DNA of 33,506 bases, taken from Bifidobacterium breve (GTDB lineage: Bacteria > Cyanobacteriota > Cyanobacteriia > PCC-6307 > Cyanobiaceae). The stretch spans positions 1-33,506 of the forward strand of contig CALPNT020000009.1 in assembly GCA_943325005.2 (NCBI GenBank), given 5' to 3'. The position numbers were made by a program, and so were the translations under genes. Numbering within the stretch: the stretch's first letter is position 1; the number at the start of each line of letters is the position of its first letter. Below the pieces are notes generated by a model, which saw only the letters and a program-made list of their open reading frames with translations, was not told the origin of the DNA and ran no database searches. This document shows, in pieces, positions 1,245 to 20,530 of this stretch.

Positions 1245-4200
1245 TTGGTGGCATCCCTGGCAATCGACAAGCAAAACGCCGCTCAAGGGCAAGGCTTGCC
1301 CGACCATGTGGTGGCGATCGGCGCCTCCGCCGGGGGGCTGGAAGCCATCCAGGAGCTGGCTCGTCATTTGGTGCTGCCAGGCCATTTCGCCTACATCGTG
1401 GCCCAGCATCTGGCACCTGACCATCCCAGCCTGCTGGTCGATCTGGTCGCCCGGGTCACCAGCCTGAACGTGGTCACGGCGGTCGATGGAGCGGCACTCG
1501 AGCCTGGCGTGATCGTGATCGCCCCCCCCCACTGCGATGTAGCCGTCGAAGCTGGCCAGCTGCGGGTCAGCGACCCCTTGCCACGCTTCGGGCCCAGCCC
1601 CTGCATCGACCTGCTGTTCGAATCCTTGGCCGAACAGTGGGGCGACAAGGGGATCGCCGTGGTGCTCTCGGGCACCGGTTCGGATGGCGCCCGTGGCCTG
1701 CGGGCTGTTCGGGTCGCTGGCGGCCTCACCATTGCCCAGTCACCCCAGGAAGCAAAGTTCGACGGCATGCCCAGGGCCGCCATTTCCCTCGGTGGCGCCG
1801 ACCTGGTGCTGGAGGCCGCCGCGATCGGAGAACGGCTCTGCGACATGATTCGCAAAGGCGGGGACTGGATCAGCGAACCCTTGCCCGAACCGCAGACCGT
1901 GTTGCTCAACAGTGTGACGACCAAGCTGAAACAGATCAGCGGAATCGACTTCTCCCAGTACAAGGAATCCACCCTGCGCCGGCAGGTGCAGCGCCGCATG
2001 GCCATTCGTGGCATCAACAGCATGAGCGACTACCTGCCCCTGCTCAACACCCAGGAGGAGGAATCCCAGGCCTTGGTGCAGAATCTGCTGGTCGGTGTCA
2101 CCTCGTTCTTTCGTGATGCCAAGGCCTTCGAGGCCCTGCGCGAACTGCTGCACAACAAGTTCACAGCCTCGATGTCATCAGCGCAGCTGCGCGTCTGGGT
2201 CGCGGGCTGTGCCAGCGGCGAGGAGGCTTATTCGATCGCCATGCTGGTGAGTGAGGTGCTCGGCCATCCAGGGGGACTGGCGTCGCAGCTGAAGATCTTC
2301 GCCACCGACCTCGATGAACAGAGCCTGGCGATCGCTCGCCGCGGCCTCTATCCACTCTCGGCCGCCAAAGCGATTCCTGACGATCTGCGCAGCCGCTTCC
2401 TCACTGAAACGGATGGCGAAGTTGAAGTGGATAAAGCCTTGCGTAACTGCATCGTCTTTGCCCGACACAACCTCTGCGAAGACCCACCCTTTCCCAATCT
2501 TGATCTCATTTCCTGCCGCAACACGCTGATCTACCTCACCCCATCGCTGCAGGAACGGGTGCTGGACCTCTTTTCCTTTGCCCTGCGGCCTGGTGGCCTG
2601 CTATTTCTGGGCAGTTCCGAGGCCATCGGCAATCGCATCCCCGGGTTTGCTGCCGCCAATGGGGGCCAGCGCCTTTATCTGCGCACGCAGCAGGCCCGGA
2701 AGCCTCAGCCCCTCACCACCCTGATGCCGCCGCAGTCGTTGCCCCAACCCATTGGTGCAGCAGGCCGGATCACCGCTCTGCGCCCGAGCGTGCCGGAGCA
2801 ACATGTGGCCTTGCTGGAGGTGCTGGTTCGCCAGCTCAGCATGCCTGGCCTGGTGTTGGATCAAAACCATGATCTGGTGCAGGTGATCGGCGATGTGAGC
2901 GCTTACTGCCGCATGCCGGAAGGCCGGATGACGGCCTCGGCCGCAGCGTTCCTGCGCTCTGAACTGCAGGCGGAAGCGCGGGTGCTGTTTCTGCTGGTGC
3001 GGGCCGATCGGATCGCCGCCAGCAGCAGACCGATCCACCTCGACGACCTCGACAATCCGATTCGCCTTGTGGCCTCGCCGCTGGAGGTGGGTGAACGCAG
3101 CCTCACCCTGTTGTCCTTCCAGAAGGAAGCCACCTCGATCGGCAGCCCCCCACCCTCTACTGGTGAGGGGAGCGAGCGGGATGCGGCCTTCGGCAAGGAA
3201 ATCGAACGGCTGGAGCAGGAACTGCTCTCCAGCCAGGACAGCCTGCACCGCTCCTTGAGCGAACTGGAGCAAGCCAACGAAGAGCTGGAGGCGTCGTCTG
3301 AGGAACTGCAGGCCTCCGCCGAAGAGCTGCAGGCGTCGAATGAAGAGCTGGAGGCCTCAAACGAAGAACTCCAGGCCACCAATGAAGAACTGGCCACCCT
3401 GAACCAGCAGCTGCGCACTCGCAACGATCAAACCGAGGAGCTCAACAACGATCTCGAGAACATCCAGGCCTCCCTGAGCCAGGGCATGGTGATCCTGGAC
3501 CGCAATCTGCGGGTCACCCGCTTCTCACCCCTTGCCGTGCGGGTGTTCGGCCTCGTACCCAGCGACATCGGCCAGCCGCTGATCGGGGTGCCCACCACGG
3601 TGCCGCTGCCGGAACTGCGGGAAACCCTGCTGGCGGTGCTCGAAGACGGCACTCGCCACAGCAGTGAAGCCAGCAGTGAGGAGGTGTCGTATCTGGTGCA
3701 GTTCCTGCCCTATCAGGAACGGGACGGCAAGCGTCTGGGGGTGATCATCTCGATGACCGATGTGTCCGAACTGGTGGCGCTGCGGCGGGCGGCTGAGGCG
3801 GCGCTGAGCGAGTTCACCTGTCTCACCATCGCCCTTGAGGTGGCTGTCTGGAAGAAAGATCCCTCCTTGCAGAAATTGCTCTTCATGAGTGAGCGCATCC
3901 GGGGCATCAGCGGCTGGACACCCGCCGAAGTGTGTCAGCAACCCAGCCTGCTGGAGGAGGCCATCCTCCCGGCCGACCGTGCGTTGGTGCAAGCAGCCCG
4001 CAAGCTGGAGCAGGGAGCCTGGTCGGTGCCCTATCGCCTGCATAGCCGCGATGGCCGTGAGCATTGGGTACAGGAATCGGCCAAGGTGCTGCAGGAGGGC
4101 TGCGACCACGTCGTGGTGGGCACACTCACCGACATCACCGAACTGCACGCCCTCGAAGAACAGGCCCGGGAGCTGGCGGCAACGCTGGAATCGATCGTCC

Positions 4201-4562
4201 ACACCAGCCTGTTCGCCGTGGCCAGCCTGGATGCCGAGCTGCGGGTGATGATGGCCAATGAACGGTTCTGCGCCCTGGTGGGCTTCAACCCTCAGGCAAT
4301 TCAGGGCATGCCTGCGGCCGCCTTTGCGCCAGGACCGCAGGACAAAGGGCCGGAGGGCCGGCCCTGGCCAGCCGAAAATCTCAGCGCCGCGGCTCGCTCC
4401 GTGCTGGACGGGGTGGAGCCGGTGGTGCGGCGATCGCTGGCCATCCGCAGCCAGGACGGCAGCATTCAGGCCTTGGAGGCCGAGATCCGGCCCGTAGGCC
4501 CCCACGCCGGCAAAGCGAGAGTGCTGGTCATCGTTCAAGAGCGGGGCGAAGGATCGAGCTGA
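1245..4562 (+). CDS. CheB methylesterase-CheR methyltransferase-PAS fusion protein without kinase domain
   Basis: A 1105-residue multidomain signalling protein. Residues ~20-200 are a CheB methylesterase with an intact triad: Ser28 in GASAGG, His55 in AQHLAPDH and Asp147 in SGTGSDG. Residues ~220-465 are a CheR SAM-dependent methyltransferase, with the SAM loop VWVAGCASGEEAYS (317-330) and CRNTLIYL (424-431). Residues ~650-745 form a coiled coil of repeated EEL-A-S/N heptads. Three PAS-like domains follow (about 746-845, 856-965 and 975-1100). The protein ends there, with no HisKA/HWE or ATPase domain. There is no receiver domain before CheB. The start is TTG 1245 or GTG 1248; an in-frame stop at 1209 excludes anything further upstream. 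No other chemotaxis gene is visible nearby. A sensory role coupled to methylation-type chemistry is inferred. Confidence 0.9.
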   Translation: MVASLAIDKQNAAQGQGLPDHVVAIGASAGGLEAIQELARHLVLPGHFAYIVAQHLAPDHPSLLVDLVARVTSLNVVTAVDGAALEPGVIVIAPPHCDVAVEAGQLRVSDPLPRFGPSPCIDLLFESLAEQWGDKGIAVVLSGTGSDGARGLRAVRVAGGLTIAQSPQEAKFDGMPRAAISLGGADLVLEAAAIGERLCDMIRKGGDWISEPLPEPQTVLLNSVTTKLKQISGIDFSQYKESTLRRQVQRRMAIRGINSMSDYLPLLNTQEEESQALVQNLLVGVTSFFRDAKAFEALRELLHNKFTASMSSAQLRVWVAGCASGEEAYSIAMLVSEVLGHPGGLASQLKIFATDLDEQSLAIARRGLYPLSAAKAIPDDLRSRFLTETDGEVEVDKALRNCIVFARHNLCEDPPFPNLDLISCRNTLIYLTPSLQERVLDLFSFALRPGGLLFLGSSEAIGNRIPGFAAANGGQRLYLRTQQARKPQPLTTLMPPQSLPQPIGAAGRITALRPSVPEQHVALLEVLVRQLSMPGLVLDQNHDLVQVIGDVSAYCRMPEGRMTASAAAFLRSELQAEARVLFLLVRADRIAASSRPIHLDDLDNPIRLVASPLEVGERSLTLLSFQKEATSIGSPPPSTGEGSERDAAFGKEIERLEQELLSSQDSLHRSLSELEQANEELEASSEELQASAEELQASNEELEASNEELQATNEELATLNQQLRTRNDQTEELNNDLENIQASLSQGMVILDRNLRVTRFSPLAVRVFGLVPSDIGQPLIGVPTTVPLPELRETLLAVLEDGTRHSSEASSEEVSYLVQFLPYQERDGKRLGVIISMTDVSELVALRRAAEAALSEFTCLTIALEVAVWKKDPSLQKLLFMSERIRGISGWTPAEVCQQPSLLEEAILPADRALVQAARKLEQGAWSVPYRLHSRDGREHWVQESAKVLQEGCDHVVVGTLTDITELHALEEQARELAATLESIVHTSLFAVASLDAELRVMMANERFCALVGFNPQAIQGMPAAAFAPGPQDKGPEGRPWPAENLSAAARSVLDGVEPVVRRSLAIRSQDGSIQALEAEIRPVGPHAGKARVLVIVQERGEGSS

Positions 4563-8928: not shown

Positions 8929-8977
8929 CGGCGTGCTGGGGCGGGCGCAAAGTCGATTCAACAGGGAGATCTGGGCC

Positions 8978-9988
8978 ATGGCATGTGCTGGGAAGGCCCC
9001 CGCCGATCCACGGGCCCTCACCAACGGCGCGTTCGCCCTGGGATTGATTCAACGGGCCAGCCGCCGCCTGGTGGACCTGCAGAACGAGGTCGTCGCCAAT
9101 CGCGATCCGGAACCGCTGCACCAGATGCGGGTGGCGATGCGCCGCCTGCGCACAGCCCTGCGCCAGTTCGCCCCGGCCCTGGAGCTGCCTGAAGCCGTGA
9201 GGGATCAACGCATCGCCCGGGTGGCACGGCGGCTCGGCCTGGCCAGGGATCTCGATGTGTTGCGAGCCCATCTGGAGGCCAGCGTGCTGCCGAAGCTGCC
9301 GGCGGCGGAGCGCCAGCAACTGGAACCGGTGCTGCGCCAGCTGCAGCGCGAACGCCAGCACACCCAGAGCCAGGTGGAGAAAACCCTGCGCAGCGGCAGC
9401 TATCTGAATCTCCTGGCCCACCTGCAGCGTTGGCAGAAGGCACCGCAATTCACGGCCCTGGGGCACCAGCCGCTGCGCGACTGGCTGACCGAATGGCAGG
9501 CCCCCGAGCTGGTGACGATCTTCCAGCATCCCGGCTGGGCCGTGCTCGAGCCCGACGGGCCCGTCGAGGACGTTCACGATCTGCGCAAGCAGTGCAAACA
9601 CGCCCGCTACAGCCTTGAGAATCTCCTGAGCCAGACAGGACCCCGCTGCCGCGGCTGGGCCGGGCGCTTCCGGGGGCTTCAGGATCTGCTCGGCGAACTC
9701 CATGACCTGGAGGTGCTCAGGCGAGCCATCAACGACCAACTGCCGGCCGGCAGCCTGGCTGATCTGCCGATTCTGGCGCAGCTCCTGGAGCAGGATTACC
9801 AGCGCTGCTGGCAACGCTGGGGCCTGGAGGCCACCGCTCTGCAGCAACCGCAGCGGCGACGCCAGCTCTGGCGGGATCTGCTGCGGGAGTCCAGCCCTGA
9901 CTGGAGGCGGCCCTGGTGGACCGTGGCGCTACCCCGTCGTCCGGGGGCCGGCACTGAAGCCATGCAGCGGATCTTGAGCGGCTCTTAA
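8978..9988 (+). CDS. CHAD-domain protein
   Basis: A 336-residue, mostly helical, Arg/His-rich protein. The CHAD domain (conserved histidine alpha-helical domain) fills it. The first conserved block is LHQMRVAMRRLRTALRQF (His48, with several Arg). The second is VHDLRKQCKHARYSLENL (His200, Lys204, Lys207, His208). CHAD domains bind polyphosphate through these basic faces and associate with polyphosphate granules. The frame could start at GTG 8933. ATG 8978 is preferred, because it has an AGGGAG ribosome site upstream and follows the candidate Pho box. pstS begins 66 bp downstream, so a phosphate-storage role fits the context. There is no CYTH triphosphatase domain, unlike some CHAD proteins. 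Confidence 0.88.
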   Translation: MACAGKAPADPRALTNGAFALGLIQRASRRLVDLQNEVVANRDPEPLHQMRVAMRRLRTALRQFAPALELPEAVRDQRIARVARRLGLARDLDVLRAHLEASVLPKLPAAERQQLEPVLRQLQRERQHTQSQVEKTLRSGSYLNLLAHLQRWQKAPQFTALGHQPLRDWLTEWQAPELVTIFQHPGWAVLEPDGPVEDVHDLRKQCKHARYSLENLLSQTGPRCRGWAGRFRGLQDLLGELHDLEVLRRAINDQLPAGSLADLPILAQLLEQDYQRCWQRWGLEATALQQPQRRRQLWRDLLRESSPDWRRPWWTVALPRRPGAGTEAMQRILSGS

Positions 9989-10054: not shown

Positions 10055-11047
10055 ATGACCTTCGCGAAGAAGGCCCTGATCCTCGGCACCACCGCCAGCT
10101 TCGGCGGCGGCCTGGCCATCACCGCTGCAGCTCTGGCCGCCGCCACCATCAACGGTGCTGGGGCCACCTTCCCTGCCCCCTTCTATCAGGCCTCATTTGC
10201 AGGCCTCGCCAACAAGGGCATCAAGGTCAACTACCAGTCGGTGGGTTCGGGCGCCGGAGTGCGGCAGTTCGTTGCCGGCACGGTTGATTTCGGTGCCACG
10301 GATGAACCGATCAAGCCCGCCGAGGCGGCCAAGGTGAAGCGGGGCGTAGTGCAGTTCCCCGCCTCCGGCGGCACGATCGCCGTGGCCTACAACAACCCCA
10401 GCTGCCCGGCCCTCAAGCTCACCCAGAAGCAGGTGGTCGGCATCTTCCTCGGCCAGATCGACACCTGGGAGGAGCTCAAGTGCGGCAGCGGCCCGATCAA
10501 GGTGGTGCACCGTTCGGACGGATCCGGCACCACCTTCGCCTTCACCAACTCCCTCTCGGCCTTCTCGGCTGACTGGAAGAGCAAAGTGGGCGAAGGCAAA
10601 AGCGTCAAGTGGCCCGTGGGCGTTGGCGGCAAAGGCAATGAGGGAGTGGCCGGCACGATCAGCAACACCCCCGGTTCGATCGGCTATCTCAGTGAAGCCT
10701 TCGTTAAAGGCAAAATCAAGGCAGCTGCCGTTCAGAACAAGGCTGGTCGCTTTGTCAAGCCCAATGCCAAGAGCGGTGCCGCCGCTCTGAACAACATCCG
10801 GCTCGACGGCATGCTGGCCGGAGAAGATCCCAATCCCGCCGGCGAGACCAGCTACCCGATCTCCACTCTTACCTGGATCCTGGCCTACAAAACCGGCAAC
10901 GGTGAAAAAGCCGAGGTGATTCAGAAGGCAATGGAGCATCTGCTCAGCAACACCACCCAGTTCCGCGGCGAAGTCCTCGGCTTCATCCCCCTCAAGGGAT
11001 CGATCCTCAGCCAGTCCCGCCGCGCCGTCGACAGCATCGGCAAGTAG
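10055..11047 (+). CDS. pstS: Phosphate ABC transporter substrate-binding protein PstS
   Basis: A 330-residue periplasmic phosphate-binding protein. The N-terminus (lysines, then an Ala/Gly-rich hydrophobic stretch to about residue 33) is a signal peptide. The PstS signatures follow in order: INGAGATFPAPFYQ, VGSGAGVRQF, DFGATDEP and HRSDGSGTTFAFTN. The last holds the Ser/Asp/Gly residues that contact phosphate in the family. The C-terminus (FRGEVLGFIPLKGSIL) is also typical. It captures inorganic phosphate for a PstCAB permease; pstC, pstA and pstB are not in this window. A strong terminator follows at 11074, so the gene is probably transcribed alone or with the CHAD gene. It belongs to the same neighbourhood as phoB-phoR 4 kb away. 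Confidence 0.95.
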   Translation: MTFAKKALILGTTASFGGGLAITAAALAAATINGAGATFPAPFYQASFAGLANKGIKVNYQSVGSGAGVRQFVAGTVDFGATDEPIKPAEAAKVKRGVVQFPASGGTIAVAYNNPSCPALKLTQKQVVGIFLGQIDTWEELKCGSGPIKVVHRSDGSGTTFAFTNSLSAFSADWKSKVGEGKSVKWPVGVGGKGNEGVAGTISNTPGSIGYLSEAFVKGKIKAAAVQNKAGRFVKPNAKSGAAALNNIRLDGMLAGEDPNPAGETSYPISTLTWILAYKTGNGEKAEVIQKAMEHLLSNTTQFRGEVLGFIPLKGSILSQSRRAVDSIGK

Positions 11048-14370: not shown

Positions 14371-15003
14371 ATGGTGTTCACGCCGTCCCGTGGCGCTGCC
14401 GGCAGCGGTGCATTCCGCGAATTCCTGGAGGCCAGCTACCGCAAGCGCACCCTGGTGCATCTGGCGGCGGGCAGTCAGGTGCCGATGCTGCGCAACAGCA
14501 TCTGGCTGGTGGTGCGCGGCATGGTCAAGCTCGGAGCGATCACCATCCACGGCGACGACCTGCTGCTGGGACTGGCCGGTCCGAGTGAACCGTTCGGCGA
14601 ACCGCTCACCGATGTGGAGGCCTTCGAGGCCCGCACGCTCTGCGACACCGACCTGTTGTGCCTGAGCCTGGAGGAAATCCGTTCCGATGCCAGTCTTGCG
14701 GTGGCCATGCTGCAGGCGGTGACCAAGCGCTACCGCCAGTCCCAGTCGCTGTTGGCCCTGATGGGCCTGCGCCGGGTGGAAGAACGGGTGCGGGGCTTTC
14801 TGGAGCTTTTGGCCACCGAATATGGCCAGGCCTGTGAACAGGGACTGCGACTTGATCTGCGACTCACCCACCAGGAAGTGGCCAGTGCCCTTGGCACCAC
14901 GCGTGTCACCGTCACCCGGGTGATCGGCGTGCTGCGCCAGGAAGGCTGGCTGAGTCTTGACGGGCAGCGCCGTCTGGTGATCAGCCATCTGCCCCCCCGG
15001 TGA
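14371..15003 (+). CDS. CRP/FNR-family regulator, PtrA-like
   Basis: A 210-residue CRP/FNR-type regulator. Residues ~25-115 form the degenerate cyclic-nucleotide-type beta barrel; the cAMP phosphate-binding residues are not evident. A dimer helix follows (~115-150). The winged HTH lies at about 164-196: LTHQEVASALGTTRVTVTRV, then IGVLRQEGWLS. It is the first gene of a run with phoB and phoR. In marine Synechococcus and Prochlorococcus the CRP-like regulator PtrA is linked to phosphate stress, and a similar gene lies beside phoBR in some strains. Calling this gene ptrA is an inference from fold and neighbours; another CRP-family paralogue is possible. NtcA is less likely, since the barrel differs from it. 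Confidence 0.75.
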   Translation: MVFTPSRGAAGSGAFREFLEASYRKRTLVHLAAGSQVPMLRNSIWLVVRGMVKLGAITIHGDDLLLGLAGPSEPFGEPLTDVEAFEARTLCDTDLLCLSLEEIRSDASLAVAMLQAVTKRYRQSQSLLALMGLRRVEERVRGFLELLATEYGQACEQGLRLDLRLTHQEVASALGTTRVTVTRVIGVLRQEGWLSLDGQRRLVISHLPPR

Positions 15004-15047
15004 TCCCCCTCTTCTGGATCGACCACCTGCCGACCGACAATGGCGGG

Positions 15048-15749
15048 ATGCAACCTTCCCTGCTGGTCGTTGAAGACGACGAAACGATCCGCGAGACGAT
15101 CCGTGACGCCTTGGTCCTGGAGGGTTTCGCGGTGACGGCCTGCGGTAATGGCCGCGATGCGCTCGACACCCTCACCCGGGCCAGCGCCGATGCCAGTGGC
15201 GGCTTTGCCCTGGTGGTGCTGGATCTGATGCTGCCGGGACTGGGAGGGCTGGATCTCTGCCGCGAATTACGTGGCGCTGGCGATCGCACACCCATCCTGG
15301 TGGTGAGTGCCCGCGACAGCGAAACCGATCGGGTGGTCGGCCTGGAGGTGGGGGCGGATGACTACCTGATCAAGCCCTTCGGCATGCGCGAACTGGTGGC
15401 CCGCTGCCGCGCCCTGATGCGCCGCAGCCAACCCACCGCCGAGGCGGCACCCTCGGTGCTGGAACACGCCAACCTGCGGCTCTATCCGGATGAATGTCGC
15501 GTCACCCGCGATGGGCTGGAGGTGAATCTTTCCCCCAAGGAGTACAGGCTGCTGGAGCTGTTCATGCAGCATCCCCGTCGGGTCTGGAGCCGCGACAAAT
15601 TGCTGGAGCAGGTCTGGGGTATGGACTATTTCGGCGATAGCAAAACCGTCGATGTTCATATTCGCTGGCTACGCGAAAAACTCGAAGCCAGCCCCTCGGC
15701 TCCGGTCCATCTGATCACCGTGCGGGGCTTCGGCTACCGGTTCGGCTGA
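15048..15749 (+). CDS. phoB: Phosphate response regulator PhoB/SphR
   Basis: A 233-residue OmpR/PhoB-type response regulator. The receiver has the acidic pocket VVEDDE (7-12), phospho-acceptor Asp59 in LVVLDLMLPG, the switch Ser87 in ILVVSA and Lys109 in YLIKPF. The C-terminal winged helix ends with the usual DVHIRWLREKLE and VRGFGYRFG. The frame opens at GTG 15000, which overlaps the previous stop as GTGA. ATG 15048 is preferred because PhoB proteins normally begin just before the VVEDD strand; the longer form would add 16 residues. It is followed at once by the phoR-type kinase and preceded by the CRP-like gene, so the three are probably one operon. Confidence 0.88.
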   Translation: MQPSLLVVEDDETIRETIRDALVLEGFAVTACGNGRDALDTLTRASADASGGFALVVLDLMLPGLGGLDLCRELRGAGDRTPILVVSARDSETDRVVGLEVGADDYLIKPFGMRELVARCRALMRRSQPTAEAAPSVLEHANLRLYPDECRVTRDGLEVNLSPKEYRLLELFMQHPRRVWSRDKLLEQVWGMDYFGDSKTVDVHIRWLREKLEASPSAPVHLITVRGFGYRFG

Positions 15750-17045
15750 GTGGGTTTCCTTTTGGCGGCACTGCTAGGGCTCGGCATCGGCCTGCTGTTG
15801 CCGCGGCCGCGGAGCCCTGGCCGCCGGCCCTTCAACCGGCTGGAACGCACCCAGCTGATTCGCTGGCTCAACTCCAGCCCCAGTGGCTGGTTGATCGTCG
15901 ATCCGACCGACCAGGTGGTCCTGATCAATCACCGGGCCGAACGACTGCTGGATGTGCTTGGGGCGGCGTTGATGCACACACCGCCATTGACCCGGGTCTG
16001 CCCGGCACCGGAGCTGGCTGAGTTGATTCGTGATGCCCGCCTGCGCCAACGCACCCAGCGCCTGGAATGGCAGCGTTCAGGCCAGGAGCTGGTGCTCTTC
16101 GCTCTGCCCGGTGAGGGAGGCTGGGTGGCCCTGGTGCTGCAGAGCCGCCGCTCACTGGAAGCCCAGCTCGAACAGCAGGAGCGCTGGGTGAGCGATCTGG
16201 CCCACGAACTCAAAACCCCCTTGACAGCCCTGCTGCTGGTGGGAGACAGCCTGGCCGCCCACGTGAACAGCGGCAATGCCGTGCTGGTGGAACGCTTACA
16301 GCGGGAGCTACTGCGACTGCAGGAGCTGGTGGGCGACCTGCTGCAACTGTCCCGCCTGGAAAACACCCTGCCCCGCGATGGTCTGAGGCGCTCCGAGGTC
16401 GACCTGCCGCAGCTGGTGGAACAGGTGTGGCTCGGACTGCGGCCCCTGGCGGAGCAGCGCCAGATCCGGCTTGAGCTGAAGGTGGTCGACAACCGCCATG
16501 GCCAGGGCTTGAGCCAAGCCAACGGCGAAACCAAAGTCAACAGCCCAACCAAGCTCAACAGCGCAACCAGCGCCAGTGAACTGGGCCTCGGCCATTCCCA
16601 GGCAAACAGCCCTTCCGGTGAGACCAGCGGTGTTCAGGAGCACAGCCAGGCGCTTGAACACCACACCGCCTCCGGCAGCGACGACGCCATACGGATTCAG
16701 GGGGATGGGTCGCTGCTGCATCGCGCCCTGCTCAACCTGATCGACAACGCCCTGCGCTACAGCCCGGACGGGGGCTGTGTGTGGGTGCGGATTCAGTCCA
16801 CCGACCAGTGGTGCCTGCTGACGGTGCGGGACGAAGGGCCCGGACTCAGCGAGGAGGACCAGGAACGCCTGTTTGAGCGCTTCTACCGCGGCGACCCCTC
16901 CCGGGTGCGCAGTCGTCGGGGCGGCAGTGGTCTGGGCCTGGCGATCGTCCAGCAGATCGCCCTCACCCACGGCGGTCGCGTCCAGGCCGGCAACCATCCC
17001 GATGGTGGGGCTCGACTGGAACTGCTGCTACCGGTGGGAGGCTGA
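15750..17045 (+). CDS. phoR: Phosphate sensor histidine kinase PhoR/SphS
   Basis: A 431-residue sensor kinase starting at GTG, directly after the phoB stop (TGAGTG). One N-terminal hydrophobic segment (residues 2-17) anchors it. A PAS-like region follows (~35-130). HisKA holds the phospho-acceptor His152 in SDLAHELKTPL. The ATPase has the N box NLIDNALRYS (329-338), G1 DEGPGL (361-366) and G2 GGSGLGLAIV (391-400). It phosphorylates PhoB when phosphate is low. There is a polar Gln/Ser/Asn/Thr-rich insert of about 60 residues (~248-312) between HisKA and the N box, where PhoR proteins usually have the compact start of the ATPase fold. All catalytic motifs are kept. Confidence 0.88.
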   Translation: MGFLLAALLGLGIGLLLPRPRSPGRRPFNRLERTQLIRWLNSSPSGWLIVDPTDQVVLINHRAERLLDVLGAALMHTPPLTRVCPAPELAELIRDARLRQRTQRLEWQRSGQELVLFALPGEGGWVALVLQSRRSLEAQLEQQERWVSDLAHELKTPLTALLLVGDSLAAHVNSGNAVLVERLQRELLRLQELVGDLLQLSRLENTLPRDGLRRSEVDLPQLVEQVWLGLRPLAEQRQIRLELKVVDNRHGQGLSQANGETKVNSPTKLNSATSASELGLGHSQANSPSGETSGVQEHSQALEHHTASGSDDAIRIQGDGSLLHRALLNLIDNALRYSPDGGCVWVRIQSTDQWCLLTVRDEGPGLSEEDQERLFERFYRGDPSRVRSRRGGSGLGLAIVQQIALTHGGRVQAGNHPDGGARLELLLPVGG

Positions 17046-18487: not shown

Positions 18488-19282
18488 CTAAGGCTTCGTG
18501 CTGGCTGGCTCTGAGTTGCCGTGCAGCAGTGCACGCCAGATCCAGAGGGTCTGGCCATCGGGCCAGAGCAACAGCAGCTGATCATCCAGGACCACCGCCA
18601 TTCTTTGGCCAGAACGGAGACCATCCTGGGCGGCATCAGCCAGGGGCAGTCGCCTGAGTTCAAGGCTCTCGGTTGGCGAGATCTGGCCCACCGCCGATGG
18701 GGGGACAACCACGGCCCGCTTCCAGAGCTGGCGCCAGGCGGCGGCGGCATCCCCCTGCGGGCGCTGCAGTTCTGGATCAGGTGGCAGCTCCAGCTCAGGG
18801 TTTCCGCCAAGCTCAGCCGCAGCGCCAAGGCCCTGCAACCGGCGGATCACAGCCAGGGCGGTGCCGGCGAACCCTGGGGTGAAAGCGGTGCTGTGGGCAG
18901 GGCGGGTGCCCCCGCCCTTGGGTAGCCGTGAACCACTGGCTTGAATCGAACCGCCCTGAACCCGGCTGGCCGGCTGGCGGCGCCCGGCCGGACTGGCGCT
19001 CCGGGGGCTCAGCAATTGCGGAGGCGGCAGGCTGCTCAGCGATGGCAGGCTGCTGAGTGGTGCCAACGCGGCGAGCTGCAGCGACTGCTCCAGCGGTTGG
19101 CGGCGACTGAACAGCAGCAGTTCGGGGCTGTCATCCGGCAGCTGCGGCTGGCTGGGCTGGAGCTGGCGCTGGACGCGCAGCTGGCGGTAAGAGAACCCCA
19201 GCAGATGGACCACCAGCGCCGCCAGCAAGGCGAGCCACAGGGACGAGGCAGGACCTAGCCGCTGCGGCAGCAACCGTTTCAT
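18488..19282 (-). CDS. TonB-like membrane-anchored periplasmic protein
   Basis: A 264-residue protein from ATG 19282, which overlaps the stop of the upstream exbD-like gene (ATGA). One N-terminal membrane helix (about 12-29: SSLWLALLAALVVHLLGF) carries a His in its C-terminal half, in a position recalling the His of TonB's helix. A Pro/Ser/Leu-rich periplasmic spacer follows (~45-125). The C-terminal ~100 residues appear folded but do not show the canonical TonB C-terminal YP-motif. With ExbB- and ExbD-like genes directly upstream, it is probably the energy-transducing partner of a Ton-type complex. Its receptor is unknown. A longer frame to 19351 exists but lies inside the upstream gene. Confidence 0.6.
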   Translation of the reverse strand: MKRLLPQRLGPASSLWLALLAALVVHLLGFSYRQLRVQRQLQPSQPQLPDDSPELLLFSRRQPLEQSLQLAALAPLSSLPSLSSLPPPQLLSPRSASPAGRRQPASRVQGGSIQASGSRLPKGGGTRPAHSTAFTPGFAGTALAVIRRLQGLGAAAELGGNPELELPPDPELQRPQGDAAAAWRQLWKRAVVVPPSAVGQISPTESLELRRLPLADAAQDGLRSGQRMAVVLDDQLLLLWPDGQTLWIWRALLHGNSEPASTKP

Positions 19283-19668
19283 GGCAGTTGCAGCTCCAGG
19301 GGCAGCGGACCGGTGTCCAACCGTGCCACCAACTGCTGCACAGCCCCCCATGGCACCTGGGGATCGCTCACCAGCCGCAAGCGCAGATCGCTGCGCTGCT
19401 GGGCCAGCCGCTTCAGCACCGCGGCCAGCTGCTGCGGTGCCACGGCATGGTTCCAGAGCCGTAGCTGTCCCCGGGAATCCAGCCGCAACAGAATCACCCC
19501 GGCACTGGCCGGGCGCTGCGCCAGGCGCTGAGGAACCACGCTGAGCGCCAGGGTCAGCAGGGCCAGACTGATGCCCATCAATCCCAGCGCCAAAGCCTCA
19601 ATCGCGTGGGGCTGGGCCACGACCGGGCCGGAGGCAGGGCCGTTGAAGGGGAGTTGGGGGTGGATCAT
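19279..19668 (-). CDS. ExbD/TolR-like protein (second copy)
   Basis: A 129-residue protein. One membrane helix (about 21-45) is followed by a periplasmic ExbD/TolR-type fold, with VILLRLDSRGQLRLW, an amphipathic helix and LRLRLVSDPQVPWGAVQQLV. In canonical ExbD the helix begins P-L-I-D, with an essential proton-path Asp. Here the matching stretch is HAIE (21-24), so Glu replaces Asp. It overlaps both neighbours by 4 bp (ATGA). With ExbB it would form a proton-driven motor. Confidence 0.7.
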   Translation of the reverse strand: MIHPQLPFNGPASGPVVAQPHAIEALALGLMGISLALLTLALSVVPQRLAQRPASAGVILLRLDSRGQLRLWNHAVAPQQLAAVLKRLAQQRSDLRLRLVSDPQVPWGAVQQLVARLDTGPLPLELQLP

Positions 19669-20021
19669 CGCCCTGGTTGCGGCGGCAGTTCCAGCAGCAC
19701 CGGGCCCGATCCGAGCGAACGCAACCAGCGCAACGAGGAGGAGATGTCGCCGATCGGCAGGGCCGCCGACGGCAGATAGTGCACAGCCACCCTGCCTCCC
19801 TGGTGGCGGAGCAAAGCGGCCAGCCGATTGGTTTCAATCGCTTGACCGCCGAGATGCCAGCGCTTGCCTGGGGCTTCCACCAGCCACAGGGAGGTGCCCC
19901 CATCCCTGCTGAGCAGGGGCCGCGACCGGGGGATCCGTTCGCGGGCGATCTCCGGCAGGGCGGCCACAGCCCCACAGACCAGCAGGGTGAATCCCACCAG
20001 ACATTGCAGCGCCAGACTCAT
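19665..20021 (-). CDS. ExbD/TolR-like protein (first copy), no acidic residue in the membrane helix
   Basis: A 118-residue protein from ATG 20021, overlapping the exbB stop by 4 bp. The membrane helix spans about 3-22 (LALQCLVGFTLLVCGAVAAL) and has no Asp or Glu, although canonical ExbD needs an Asp there. The periplasmic part resembles ExbD: SLWLVEAPGKRWHLGG, then TNRLAALLRHQGGRVAVHYL and a last GPVLLELP strand. It may be a structural partner of the Glu-bearing copy downstream. Assignment rests on fold-like pattern and position. Confidence 0.6.
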   Translation of the reverse strand: MSLALQCLVGFTLLVCGAVAALPEIARERIPRSRPLLSRDGGTSLWLVEAPGKRWHLGGQAIETNRLAALLRHQGGRVAVHYLPSAALPIGDISSSLRWLRSLGSGPVLLELPPQPGR

Positions 20022-20530
20022 GGATGGGCCGGCTCCAACAGGCGTCGTAGCGGCCGCTCCAGCTCGCCGATCTGCCAGTGACGCAGCCCCTGGTTCAGCG
20101 ACAAGGTGGTGGTGGCCACCAGGCTGACGATCAGACCCAGGGCCGTGCTGATCAGCACCTCGCCGTAGCCCTGAAGACTGGTCCCGGCGGGCAGGAGCAG
20201 CTGGGGCCCGAGACTGGAAAGCACCTGCATCAGGCCGATCACGGTACCGATCAGCCCCAGCAGCGGGGCGATCACGATGGCGGCCTGCAGCAGCGGTTCG
20301 CCAAAGCGGATCTCCCGATCCCAGTCTTCAAGCTGATGACGCGCCTCTGTGGGGGCTGTCTCCAGCTGGAACCGCCACTGCTGGCGGCGCAACGATCGCC
20401 TACGGAACCACTGCAGCCACCAACGGCAACGGTCGAAACACACCGTGAGCACAGCGATCGATACGAGCAACAGCAGCACACCGATCGGGCCACTCACCCC
20501 GGGGATCAGTCCATGGGAGGCGCTATTCAA
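20018..20530 (-). CDS. exbB: ExbB/TolQ/MotA-family proton channel protein
   Basis: About 170 residues from TTG 20530; GTG 20497 (159 residues) is an alternative, and no ATG fits. The open frame continues far upstream, but only as antisense of cysK. Three membrane helices lie at about 13-35, 79-101 and 124-146. The MotA/TolQ/ExbB core is clear: APLLGLIGTVIGLMQVL (88-104) and GYGEVLISTALGLIVSLVAT (121-140). Thr96 and Thr129 match the two channel threonines of E. coli ExbB. It is shorter than E. coli ExbB (244 residues), lacking most of the N-terminal region. It is the first gene of a four-gene cassette with 4-bp overlaps and diverges from cysK. Confidence 0.8.
   Translation of the reverse strand: MNSASHGLIPGVSGPIGVLLLLVSIAVLTVCFDRCRWWLQWFRRRSLRRQQWRFQLETAPTEARHQLEDWDREIRFGEPLLQAAIVIAPLLGLIGTVIGLMQVLSSLGPQLLLPAGTSLQGYGEVLISTALGLIVSLVATTTLSLNQGLRHWQIGELERPLRRLLEPAHP

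Follow-up and report, generated by a model that had tools for sequence, protein, structure and literature searches.

An ExbB-ExbD-ExbD-TonB-like cassette of Cyanobiaceae in which the rotor aspartate is mostly missing from both ExbD proteins

The locus was analysed in a stretch of 33,506 nucleotides (the window), taken from a Cyanobiaceae genome that is 92% complete. Four overlapping minus-strand open reading frames run from 20530 to 18488. These encode an ExbB/TolQ-like channel protein (20018..20530), two small single-helix ExbD-like proteins, D1 (118 aa; 19665..20021) and D2 (129 aa; 19279..19668), and a TonB-like single-helix protein of 264 aa (18488..19282). Neighbouring genes share 4-bp ATGA overlaps at all three junctions, and the coordinates and junctions bear out the minus-strand chain that the first-pass annotation had described. 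The 5' neighbour is a divergent cysK. On the 3' side lies a convergent aminotransferase gene, followed by three plus-strand genes outside the cassette (14371..17045), which were named with NCBIfam models: a PhoR-like kinase (15750-17045) and a PhoB-like regulator (15000-15749), for which the PhoR and PhoB models are the nearest but score under their cut-offs, and ptrA (14371-15003; PtrA model, 346.7 bits, cut-off 300).

The PhoB/PhoR-like genes and ptrA adjoin the cassette in 20 of 41 loci, with ptrA at most about 4 kb away, and in at least six loci ptrA follows the cassette directly, in the same orientation. The gene for PstS likewise lies within the window (10055-11047), and a CHAD-domain protein (8933-9988; Pfam 4e-44) lies immediately 5' of pstS. 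A phosphate link via ptrA-phoB-phoR was kept as a lead only, as the synteny is seen in 20 of 41 loci and is absent near the cassettes of other clades. The window further encodes a fused CheB-CheR-PAS protein of 1105 aa with a TTG start (1245-4562). In two complete genomes (L070 and L071), the gene 3' of the cassette encodes a small secreted protein whose HELFH motif resembles that of metalloproteases.

The channel gene starts at TTG 20530 (170 aa). An in-frame GTG at 20497 is an alternative start (159 aa), and the upstream TTG start is the one common to orthologues. The protein has three predicted membrane helices and matches Pfam MotA_ExbB (PF01618) at 53 bits against a cut-off of 22.9 (E 3.8e-14). 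In active motors, the two threonines of ExbB meet the Asp of the rotor. Both are present here as T96 (20245-20243) and T129 (20146-20144) in the 170-aa numbering, so the description of a short ExbB/TolQ/MotA-type channel with both threonines stands. Across 74 cassettes, these columns on TM2 and TM3 are near-invariant (T71/S3 and T73/M1). The carboxylate at the channel entrance, E124 in the window, is at the position of TolQ E173. This position is Glu in all five cassettes that carry the rotor Asp (see below) and mostly Gln (39) or Asp (15) in the Asp-less ones, where Glu is found in four, besides other residues.

As single sequences, the two small proteins are poorly matched by the Pfam ExbD model (PF02472). 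D2 scores 17.3 bits (E 0.005), under the cut-off of 25.4, and D1 has no match; for the D1 orthologue with Asp in L073, the score is 42 bits. Orthologue profiles match solved ExbD structures for both D1 (PDB 7ajq, E 2e-5) and D2 (E 2.5e-5). When profiles were built from Asp-less members only, they recovered the Asp-bearing orthologues (6e-17 for D1, 5e-18 for D2) and also ordinary ExbDs. An AF2 model of D1, made from a shallow alignment, has a pLDDT of 68 (about 77 within the domain). Its top Foldseek rows are TolR/ExbD with a probability of 1.0, and a second look with VIA is topped by ExbD/TolR as well (Z up to 9.6). The profiles identify both proteins as true relatives of ExbD, and for D1 the predicted fold does so too. 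The ExbD identity given to both in the first-pass annotation is thus not rejected by the fold check on the D1 model.

An Asp in the rotor is regarded as essential for MotB, TolR and ExbD, and in the systems tested its replacement abolishes function. The N-terminal helix of D1 is without any acidic residue, and Gly10 (19994-19992) fills the Asp column, where the profile alignment pairs it with the Asp of the solved ExbD. The register of D2 was set by the Asp-bearing orthologues, whose Asp aligns without gaps and lies 14 residues before the Pro at the helix end. In the window's D2, Gly32 (19575-19573) is the residue 14 before this Pro. Glu24 (19599-19597) is 22 before it, eight residues or two turns N-terminal of Gly32, on the cytoplasmic side. 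The canonical Asp is therefore absent from both helices, as had been claimed. It had also been claimed that only one copy is non-acidic, the other having Glu at the matching place. This holds for D1 and fails for D2, which is non-acidic at the Asp position too.

The same pattern was found throughout the family. In 74 cassettes, the Asp column holds G37 A25 D5 V4 S2 L1 in D1 and A35 G17 S17 D5 in D2. Asp is present in both ExbDs of five cassettes and in neither of the other 69, and there are no mixed cases. With 69 of the 74 cassettes sharing it, across 13 genera, the double loss is not a matter of chance. Among homologues, the canonical Asp is confined to five cassettes (L073, L074, L075, L103 and L104) that form a branch of their own and read 'PLIDVLL' in D1 and 'LPLxDxLLV' in D2. 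In none of the 69 Asp-less relatives does D2 have an Asp or Glu within 18 residues N-terminal of the Pro at the helix end. The position of Glu24 is acidic in 39 of the 69 and non-acidic in 30, with Gln, Pro, Trp or Arg in other clades, and across the Asp-less set the D1 and D2 helices share no conserved acidic position. The register and this lack of conservation rule out Glu24 as a stand-in for the lost Asp. In the TolQRA system of E. coli, TolR D23A and TolQ E173A, T145A and T178A each abolish function (PMC12583513), and ExbD D25N is inactive (PMC11658791). The known proton step, which depends on the Asp, is very probably unavailable to the cassette's complex.

The first-pass annotation had suggested a heteromeric motor in which one ExbD, the Glu-bearing D2, is active and the other silent. 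Two ExbDs per ExbB would suit such a motor, and, judged by its helix sequences, the arrangement is real in other cyanobacterial operons. At loci chosen by profile matches, 10 of the 12 tandem pairs read in ExbB-ExbD-ExbD operons (L129, L130-L134, L136, L137, L139 and L141) combine a copy with Asp ('VPMMDVLMTVL') with one that has Thr or Asn in that position ('IPMLTVMMGVL', 'IPMLNVMMAVL', 'LPLINIVFLLL'), and all 11 single ExbDs have Asp. For the window's cassette, the suggestion is highly improbable: neither Asp column is acidic, Glu24 is out of place, and complete relatives have no spare canonical ExbD. The last point also bears on whether ExbB might partner a canonical ExbD encoded elsewhere, with D1 and D2 as accessories. 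One genome (G030) does carry a canonical ExbB-ExbD pair in addition to the cassette. No second ExbB or ExbD over the cut-off was found in the six cassette genomes that form a single contig and are complete or nearly so (G090, G140, G147, G181, G193 and G186). A supply from elsewhere is ruled out in these genomes and very improbable in the window's own, which is 92% complete; we give it very little credence overall.

The TonB-like protein has a single helix, a Pro/Ser-rich spacer and a (D)DxPELLxFSR motif. In the helix, His26 (19207-19205) is at the motor-contact place, a column that holds H40 N23 Q8 in the family; the remaining SHLS motif was not recognised. The C-terminal domain is small, conserved and unrelated to TonB_C. 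No TonB_C was detected in six cassette transducers, while a control TonB (L129) scored 8.5e-17, which upholds the earlier remark that the partner is without a TonB C-terminal motif. No Pfam family matched this domain. A PDB profile match to sarcosine oxidase gamma (E 5.5e-4) consisted of two weak pieces and was taken as chance. The AF2 model (pLDDT 53) was too poor for a fold search.

In 16 genomes that have the cassette and no canonical pair, both Asp-less and Asp-bearing, neither a Plug domain of TonB-dependent receptors nor a TonB_C was found, and three relatives with canonical ExbBD carry both. TolB and OmpA/Pal domains were absent from the 13 genomes tested. An outer-membrane receptor, TolB and Pal had been noted as missing nearby, and they are missing elsewhere in the genome too. 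These absences support the proposal of a function other than Ton import or Tol-Pal. Since the Asp-bearing cassette-only genomes also have no TonB_C or Plug, and TolB and OmpA are absent, it is probable that the cassette did not belong to Ton or Tol already before the Asp was lost.

Of 400 Cyanobiaceae genomes searched with the D2 profile, 80 contain the family; these belong to 13 of the 59 genera. Outside Cyanobiaceae, the profile finds ordinary ExbDs only. Named records of close relatives come from lake MAGs and from Synechococcus sp. UW140, and the carriers are picocyanobacteria of freshwater type. The four genes co-occur in the roughly 75 Cyanobiaceae genomes checked, and their order is identical in every complete locus, the TonB-like gene included, so a survey of the neighbourhood in relatives shows a conserved cassette. 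The accessory distribution, with five losses among 42 genomes of the genus, and the lost key residue are what a decaying relic of a Ton-type energiser could show. One cassette does look damaged (L076, in G106), with several stops in the ExbB frame, a split TonB-like gene and an open D2. Decay is ruled out as a general account, and we consider it most improbable, because all four frames are intact in about 70 loci of 13 genera and most dN/dS values for close pairs lie at 0.1-0.5, D2 or the TonB-like gene reaching as much as 0.9 in a few pairs. The conserved Thr, Trp, Arg and Pro columns also go against decay.

The Asp-bearing cassettes come from genera g24, g32 and g44. In a concatenated tree with the Asp columns removed, they are split from the Asp-less ones by a long branch (SH 0.98). 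The rooted ExbB tree has the same split with a moderate bootstrap of 60-65. Because the two groups separate on both trees, a single event of Asp loss is likely. These sisters have the same four genes in the same order, and no TonB-dependent receptor or TonB_C in the three genomes tested. They differ by the Asp in both ExbDs and the retained entrance Glu of ExbB.

Several known systems resemble the cassette. The Ton energiser of Stenotrophomonas has a tandem ExbD (tonB1-exbB1-exbD1a-exbD1b; PMC11002078), and an ordinary ExbB-ExbD-ExbD-TonB operon also occurs in a Cyanobiaceae genome (G008). The gene set, the ExbB fold with its Thr ring, the periplasmic ExbD fold and a single-helix partner are shared with these energisers; the cassette differs in having no Asp in the ExbD helices, no TonB_C and no TonB-dependent receptor in the genome. 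TolQ-TolR-TolR-vWA operons (PMC12204202) likewise combine one TolQ-like gene with two unlike TolR-like genes and a transducer of TonB topology without the TonB C-terminus. A related vWA partner family keeps the proton-binding Asp (PMC12204202), unlike the cassette, and the C-terminus of the cassette's transducer differs from those transducers in matching no Pfam family. The AglRQS gliding motor (PMC9389320) pairs one MotA/TolQ-like protein with two MotB/TolR-like proteins, but a retained Asp is predicted for AglQ and AglS. In the open-access literature, we found nothing on Asp-less ExbD pairs or on this cassette.

By homology, the four proteins probably form one inner-membrane complex, with a pentamer of ExbB enclosing one helix each from D1 and D2, and the TonB-like helix docked on the outside. 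The first-pass proposal of a cassette that is heteromeric by gene content and has an altered proton path is consistent with our results. With small neutral residues in place of both rotor Asp and a relaxed channel-entrance Glu, the complex would reach across the envelope as a scaffold, tether or sensor that is either static or driven by other means. The periplasmic domains of D1 and D2 would lie at the cell wall, with the C-terminus of the TonB-like protein pointing towards the outer membrane. We lean slightly towards a derived 5:2-motor complex whose proton step was dismantled and which was kept for a trans-envelope role. A stronger version, which has an even chance of being right, is a clade-wide pseudo-motor that lost proton coupling in one step, through both ExbDs and with the ExbB entrance Glu relaxed, and was kept under selection for a trans-envelope function independent of the PMF. 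The chance that the complex is a passive scaffold or tether is a little under even.

Some features do not fit easily with a dismantled proton step. The near-invariant Thr pair of ExbB would not be expected if the pore were wholly idle, His, Asn or Gln is retained at the motor-contact place of the TonB-like helix, and a displaced acid is present in the 39 relatives that share an Asp or Glu at the Glu24 place. Together with the purifying selection, these could point to a complex that is still driven by ions in a non-canonical way, through the displaced D2 carboxylate near the cytoplasmic end, through the Thr ring and water, or with another ion. We regard this as unlikely, since the Asp-less set conserves no helix acid in D1 or D2, other clades have replaced the Glu24 acid and the entrance Glu of ExbB is mostly lost. 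The point that fits a dismantled proton step least well is the conserved Thr ring, which would allow for an ion route not yet known.

A derived complex with a dismantled proton step may be a case of a motor turned into something that is no longer run by protons. A natural family without Asp in both rotor subunits, and with the threonines kept, separates the motor fold from the proton motor. The Asp-less cassettes thus offer a natural test of the role of the channel threonines when the Asp is missing. Alongside the asymmetric Asp/Thr and Asp/Asn pairs of other cyanobacteria, they form a graded series of two, one and no acids, with which the role of each rotor acid could be measured.
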